From: Mumia quercus
Lineage (GTDB): Bacteria; Actinomycetota; Actinomycetes; Propionibacteriales; Nocardioidaceae
Reading direction: 5' to 3'
Assembly: GCF_025506335.1 (NCBI RefSeq)
Contig: NZ_JANZYO010000005.1
Span: 340,453 to 404,452, forward strand
Length of the DNA: 64,000 nt
Shown: piece by piece, positions 30,765-32,122 of the stretch
Layout of the letters: every line of letters starts with the position of its first letter
How positions within the stretch are numbered: the stretch's first letter is position 1
Notes under the pieces: generated by a model
Seen by the model: the letters and a program-made list of their open reading frames with translations, nothing else
The model's database searches: none
Told to the model about the DNA's origin: nothing
Program-made: the position numbers and the translations under genes

Positions 30765-31042
30765 GGGCTTCCTCCGACAAGTCTGCAGTGGTGCTCGGCT
30801 TGGCGAAGGGACGAGGCCTCACGGCCCCGCGGTACCACCCTCCTTGGCGTACGGCGAGGCGTACGCCCTCTCGTGGCGTGCCGCTGCGCGGGTCTACTGA
30901 CCTCGTCCGGCGGGCCGTACGAGGTGTTCTTCCGGCGGCTCCGGGGTGATGCGGCGAGCGGCTGTGCTCCGGGCTCCCACCGTCCCCGGATCGCTTCGGC
31001 ACAGGGGTCGTTCGTCGCGTGTCCCCATCGATACCTGCGGCT
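30765..31042 (-). promoter_or_regulatory. T-box leader of ileS (ultrashort Stem I, AUC specifier)
   Basis: Minus-strand reading. TGGTACCGCGG, the conserved T-box, is at 30827-30837. A short Stem I pairs CTGTGC (30999-31004) with GCACAG (30962-30967) and holds CGAAGCGATC in its loop, so the specifier is ATC (30989-30991), an Ile codon. A second hairpin, GGCGTACG/CGTACGCC (30846-30867), precedes the T-box as Stem III. Known actinobacterial ileS T-boxes control translation by exposing the ribosome-binding site. The transcript probably starts near 31042, after TAGACT at 31049-31054. Confidence 0.9.
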
Positions 31043-31114: not shown

Positions 31115-31143
31115 TTGTGAACCGCTCAGGCCGCGCCTACAGT
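31115..31143 (+). promoter_or_regulatory. Promoter of the dksA-like gene
   Basis: TTGTGA (31115-31120) and TACAGT (31138-31143) with 17 bp between. The expected transcription start, about 31150, lies just before the switch-like hairpin segments. Confidence 0.55.
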
Positions 31144-31156
31144 TCGGGCACCACGT

Positions 31157-31215
31157 CACATCGAGGCAATCCAGAGCGGATCGCCTCGATGTGTGGCATT
31201 TCGTGCACATCGAGG
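31157..31215 (+). promoter_or_regulatory. Candidate RNA switch (A-A'-A) in the 5' UTR of the dksA-like gene
   Basis: CACATCGAGG occurs at 31157-31166 and again at 31206-31215. Its exact complement CCTCGATGTG lies between them at 31184-31193. The middle segment can pair with the first copy (11 bp, extended by ATCC/GGAT at 31169-31172 and 31178-31181) or with the second copy. The second copy overlaps the Shine-Dalgarno GAGGGGG (31212-31218), 7 nt before the ATG. Two mutually exclusive folds would thus hide or free the ribosome-binding site. Confidence 0.5.
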
Positions 31216-31225
31216 GGGCTCAGAG

Positions 31226-32122
31226 ATGGCAAGCACGACCAAGACGCGAGAGGCGAGCGCGGTGAGCCGCGGCGCCGCAGCGGTGAAGGCTGCCGCGCGC
31301 AAGGTGGGGGCGGCCAAGAAGGCACCCGCGAAGAAGTCCGCGCCGGCGAAGAAGTCCGCGCCGGCCAAGAAGACCGCCGCGAAGAAGGCAGCGCCCGCGA
31401 AGAAGGCCGCCGCGAAGAAGGCAGCGCCCGCGAAGAAGGCCGCCGCGAAGAAGGCAGCGCCCGCGAAGAAGGCAGCGAGCAAGAAGGCCACGGCCAAGAA
31501 GGCAGCGCCCGCGAAGAAGAGCACGGCGAAGAAGACCGCCGCCAAGAAGACCACGACGGCCAAGAAGGCGACGGCCACCAAGGCAGCGCCCGCGAAGAAG
31601 GCCGCGGCCAAGAAGGCGCCCACCAAGAAGGCGCCCACCAAGAAGACGACCGCGAAGAAAGCCGCGGCGAAGAAGTCCCGTACGACAGGAGCGAAGAAGA
31701 CTGTGACCAACCCCACTGTGGCAACGCCGGGATCGCTTGCGGTCAAGCCGGACGAGACGCCTTGGACCGCCGAAGAGCTGGGAGAGGTGCGTGACGGGCT
31801 GGTCGCAGACCGTACGCGGCTCCTCGAGGAGATCGGGATCGCCGAGCGCGGGCTCGCCGACCTGCTCAGCGGGGGCGTCGACGGCGCCGGCAACGACCAG
31901 GCCGACGTGGGGTCCACGTCGCTGGAGCGCGACGCCGAGATGTCGCTCGTGGCCAACCACCGCGAGCTGCTCGTCCAGGTCGAGAAGGCCCTCGAGCGGA
32001 TCGAGTCCGGGACGTACGGCAACTGCGAGAACTGCGGGCAGCCGATCGGGAAGATGCGGTTGATGGCGTTCCCGCGTGCCACACTGTGCATGACATGCAA
32101 GCAACGCGAGGAACGTCGCTGA
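31226..32122 (+). CDS. DksA/TraR-type zinc-finger protein with histone-H1-like Lys/Ala N-terminus
   Basis: 298 residues. Residues about 25-155 are an almost pure Ala/Lys/Pro repeat ([13 protein letters not shown] units), like the tail of bacterial H1-like proteins and expected to bind DNA or RNA. The C-terminal part (about 175-298) is a DksA/TraR fold: a coiled segment, then a four-Cys zinc finger with CENC (267-270) and CMTC (288-291). DksA-family proteins bind RNA polymerase; what the fused basic tail adds is unknown. The ATG at 31226 follows GAGGGGG. It precedes lspA, overlapping it by 28 nt. Confidence 0.88.
31311..31680 (+). repeat. Degenerate tandem repeats encoding Lys/Ala/Pro units
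   Basis: Repeated GCGCCCGCGAAGAAGG-type units of 15-45 nt code for the basic tail of the dksA-like protein. The number of units is likely to vary between strains by slippage or recombination. Confidence 0.75.

Follow-up and report, generated by a model that had tools for sequence, protein, structure and literature searches.

What does a short mRNA leader do when it carries the same ten nucleotides twice, with their perfect complement in between? This question is raised by a dksA-like gene of Mumia quercus, which lies in the 64,000-nt stretch of DNA analysed here (the window). Its leader contains segment A (CACATCGAGG), the complement A′ (CCTCGATGTG) and a second copy of A, designated A2, that overlaps the ribosome-binding site (Table 1). 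The initial annotation read this arrangement as a candidate RNA switch with two exclusive hairpins, A:A′ leaving the ribosome-binding site free and A′:A2 hiding it. A check of the sequence confirmed all of its positions for the three segments, the promoter boxes, the Shine–Dalgarno (SD) sequence and the start codon. Here, we will argue that A:A′ is probably a constitutive 5′-terminal stem-loop of the dksA-like mRNA, and not a switch.

The dksA-like leader and its gene

Table 1. Features of the dksA-like locus (positions within the window)
Feature	Position	Strand	Basis
Predicted sigma-70-type promoter, TTGTGA-17-TACAGT (−35 box 31115–31120, 17-nt spacer, −10 box 31138–31143)	31115–31143	+	Sequence; arrangement kept in relatives
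Predicted 5′ leader of the dksA-like mRNA	31150–31225	+	Start inferred from the −10 box
5′-terminal stem-loop; pairs 31151–31154/31193–31196, 31158–31167/31183–31192, 31169–31172/31178–31181	31151–31196	+	Folding
Segment A, 5′ arm of the hairpin	31157–31166	+	Sequence
Segment A′, 3′ arm of the hairpin	31184–31193	+	Sequence
Segment A2, repeat of segment A that overlaps the ribosome-binding site	31206–31215	+	Sequence conserved, without A′ covariation
Shine–Dalgarno sequence GAGGGGG	31212–31218	+	Sequence; invariant in six Mumia species
DksA/TraR zinc-finger protein with Lys/Ala-rich N-terminal arm, 298 aa (ATG at 31226)	31226–32122	+	Pfam PF01258

Transcription of the dksA-like gene presumably starts from the predicted promoter. 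The same arrangement of −35 and −10 boxes is found in the other Mumia leaders, bearing out the proposed promoter placement, and other Nocardioidaceae leaders carry a TTG..TACCCT/TATCCT version. The encoded protein has a DksA/TraR C4 zinc finger (PF01258, E 2e-13) and an arm composed of repeated AKKA-type units (31226–31700), with a match to PF07382 (HC2) that stays below the curated cut-off. The distance between start codon and zinc finger varies widely in relatives. The gene is flanked by two ORFs that, from reading their translations, we take to be a divergent ileS and an lspA-like gene. In the ileS leader region, on the minus strand (30807–30872), a T-box-like match to RF00230, which at 30.4 bits falls short of the gathering score of 93, is compatible with an actinobacterial translational ileS T-box. 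Elsewhere in the window, an mraW RNA (RF01746; 8841–8960, plus strand) scores barely above its gathering score. The dksA-like leader itself matches no Rfam family, and a known RNA family was rejected as its identity. A leader peptide was also considered and rejected: the ATG at 31190 overlaps A′, no SD sequence is seen upstream of it, and it is absent in one Mumia species (G001).

The combination of the three segments is rare. The 4.1-Mb genome contains a single instance of the A-N-A′ pattern, and exact 10-nt A-A′-A triples within 100 nt are limited in the window to the leader triple and one homopolymer artefact. The long C and G runs at positions 1–75, possibly an assembly or sequencing artefact themselves, cause spurious hits at the start of the window. 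As none of 60 first-order Markov windows of the same size contained an exact triple, the leader triple exceeds chance for this window. The exact triple is common to three Mumia species (G000, G003 and G002), which are close relatives and were therefore counted as one event.

The A:A′ hairpin in Mumia and counterparts in other Nocardioidaceae

When the leader is folded from its predicted start, A:A′ forms the main helix of the predicted ground state, in a stem-loop beginning about 1 nt from the predicted transcript start. The first 50 nt of the leader have a fold z of -6.2 in the window species, -3.9 to -5.2 in four other Mumia species, and -1.3 (p 0.11) in G004, the most distant one. The prediction extends to all six Mumia species, where the A:A′ duplex has z values of -2.3 to -5.4. 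The arms of the hairpin vary between these species, and in G001 and G005 the outer and inner pairs are in different registers, but folding predicts a long stem for each species. In a MAFFT alignment of the six leaders, 84.8% of the A:A′ cells are paired, a level reached by 0 of 500 shuffles, and two pairs have changed on both sides, although six sequences provide low power. The claim that A and A′ form an RNA hairpin is thus upheld, with the pairing persisting through sequence change.

Counterparts were sought in leaders of the orthologous gene, covering 80 named GTDB loci, further loci, 40 more genomes, and 113 loci that are nearly all from Nocardioides. Many of these leaders have a stem-loop after the −10 box. 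RNAalifold returned no consensus structure for 70 Nocardioides leaders because the alignment is too heterogeneous; pairs were therefore tested on hairpins selected on the core TGTGG-N4..9-CCACA alone, with the flanking pairs examined afterwards. This resulted in 37 distinct hairpins from Nocardioidaceae outside Mumia, located 9–15 nt 3′ of the −10 box. The first pair outside the core is standard in 30 of the 37, against 17.4 expected by shuffling (p 1e-4), and occurs as C-G, G-C and T-A. The innermost pair is standard in 28 (23.6 expected, p 0.02) and is C-G, T-G or T-A in 26, while outer pairs 2 and 3 are at chance and do not covary. The fold is kept despite sequence change both in Mumia and in these family hairpins.

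Of 102 non-Mumia leaders (less than 85% identical), 38 have a stem score of 5.5 or more, versus 10.4% of shuffles; this threshold was fixed once and reused for the control sites. In a control set of 60 other noncoding −10-like sites from Nocardioides, 8 reach that score (Fisher p 7e-4); the noncoding material yielded only 9 full promoter-like sites, one of which has a stem. These statistics ignore phylogenetic dependence, and the binomial and Wilcoxon p-values for the 102 leaders are too small because the leaders are related. The non-Mumia stems are short and GC-rich, and many of these leaders are unremarkable in overall folding (mean fold z over all 70 scored leaders, -0.9). By eye, Kribbella leaders have no clear counterpart of the stem-loop, and Aeromicrobium, where the protein is short and the leader minimal or missing, has no obvious one. 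Also by eye, a Marmoricola-like group (L073, L080, L105, L111) carries a different palindrome, TATGACGTACGTCATA or similar, at the same position. Separately, Nocardioides leaders such as L226, L237 and L205 share a recurring possible small hairpin, GGCC-GAGGA-GGCC, with the SD sequence in its loop, which could just be conserved SD context.

A stem-loop that is fixed in position near the predicted 5′ end while its sequence drifts fits a stabilising 5′-terminal stem-loop. In this model, a stable, essentially permanent A:A′ hairpin would stand at the start of the leader of the dksA-like mRNA. Most likely, it would limit attack on the mRNA from its 5′ end, with the downstream ribosome-binding site staying open. 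For the three species whose segments are identical, the hairpin would also occupy A′, which is otherwise able to pair with the SD sequence.

The A′:A2 pairing and other roles for the hairpin

The A′:A2 helix behaves differently from A:A′. In the five nearer Mumia species A2 and the SD sequence are unchanged and A′ has changed, so that A′:A2 pairs drop from 10/10 to 8/10, 6/10 and 5/10 across the genus. Compared with shuffled A2, the A′:A2 duplex has z values of -2.4, -2.3 and -2.0 in the three species whose segments are identical, 0.0 in G001 and +0.4 in G005, both at background, and a marginal -1.8 in G004. Over the six species, 81.7% of the A′:A2 cells are paired, a level that 246 of 500 shuffles reach. 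The proposed comparison among relatives therefore supports covariation in one of the two suggested hairpins, A:A′, and gives none for A′:A2, with the low power of six species applying to both.

Energetics and timing also bear on a two-state translational switch, in which A:A′ opens and A′:A2 closes the ribosome site once a trigger disrupts A:A′. At 37 °C, A′:A2 has a predicted probability of 4e-6, rising to 7e-4 at 60 °C. Barring the A arm from pairing costs the fold about 16 kcal/mol in stability, and folds of the growing transcript complete A:A′ before A2 is transcribed. The two states are thus neither near in energy nor ordered in time with the closed state first. A thermosensor requires the state hiding the ribosome-binding site to be the ground state in the cold; the temperature scan contradicts this part of the annotation, as the open state remains the most stable one at all temperatures computed. 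When the A arm is blocked in silico, A′:A2 does form, lowering the mean SD openness in the window species from 0.59 to 0.17 (0.17–0.33 in the three close species). A switch would therefore be physically possible if something removes A, and the exact triple, absent from random windows, and the z values in the three species are in its favour. Nothing in the species comparison says that such a switch is in use, and no second copy of A was seen by eye, in an unsystematic survey, in leaders of other genera. Considering all of this, we regard a switch as improbable. Slightly less probable still is a lineage-specific translational switch in the Mumia clade of the window, where the 5′ arm of a protective hairpin would have been copied beside the SD sequence, with a trigger freeing A′.

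The main rival to a stabilising stem-loop is a hairpin that binds a protein or small RNA, with the structure mattering and no switching involved. For example, the Lys/Ala-rich DksA-like protein might autoregulate through its own leader, its arm being basic. The fixed position of the hairpin, and a TGTGG/CCACA core that is partly conserved in Nocardioides beyond the needs of plain stability, favour such a role. Against this, the core is not common to Mumia or the Marmoricola-like clade, making a common ligand unlikely across the family. Binding is unlikely to be the primary role; the hairpin may bind a regulator as well. The perfect inverted repeat with symmetrical half-sites adjoining the −10 box could also be a DNA operator, bound by a repressor just 3′ of the promoter without any RNA folding. 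An operator would be expected to have conserved half-sites and usually several sites per genome. Instead, half-site letters differ between sister species with the pairing kept, T-G occurs beside C-G and T-A at the innermost pair of the 37 hairpins, and loops range from 5 to 9 in length. The palindrome is present 0–3 times per genome, usually more rarely than a reversed-pattern control, and Nocardioides genomes show no enrichment of it elsewhere. Because the sequence drifts with pairing kept and the palindrome is scarce elsewhere, an operator or regulon was rejected and seems very unlikely. The constitutive 5′-terminal stem-loop, probably acting without regulation, is the reading we prefer.

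Relation to known leaders and significance

Stem-loops at the 5′ end that stabilise mRNAs are established for ompA, papA and aprE, according to works cited in PMC3997798. Like those of Escherichia coli ompA and papA and Bacillus subtilis aprE, the Mumia stem-loop would lie within a few nt of the predicted 5′ end, with an open ribosome-binding site downstream, and the sequence drifts while the fold is kept. Unlike in these mRNAs, the 5′ end in Mumia is a prediction from sequence, and in the window species the 5′ arm is repeated beside the SD sequence. An upstream segment that can pair with the SD sequence and has a competing partner is also found in type I toxin mRNAs, such as hok and Helicobacter pylori aapA3. 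There, as far as PMC6733600 describes, metastable hairpins that hide the SD sequence arise while the RNA is being transcribed and are then replaced. In Mumia, by contrast, the SD-hiding pairing would form after the stabler hairpin has closed, and it lacks covariation. Alternative pairings near the ribosome-binding site are shared with the actinobacterial ileS T-box, a translational riboswitch, in the account given in PMC10651847. Unlike translational riboswitches, the Mumia leader has no conserved ligand-binding domain that we could find and no covarying alternative helix. The portions of the literature covered here, on DksA in Streptomyces or Nocardioides and on leader stem-loops, describe neither this leader, which may be described elsewhere, nor a comparable DksA-like gene from actinobacteria.

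With moderate confidence, the hairpin would be a new example of an established type, the 5′-terminal mRNA stem-loop. The locus illustrates how three conspicuous repeats in a single genome can mimic a switch when only one of two hairpins is conserved. The hairpin is predicted in 6/6 Mumia species, its position beside the −10 box recurs in the family, and one core-flanking pair covaries in relatives. Retention of a structured leader in much of the Nocardioidaceae, before an uncharacterised DksA-like protein with a histone-like arm, points to post-transcriptional control of this protein.
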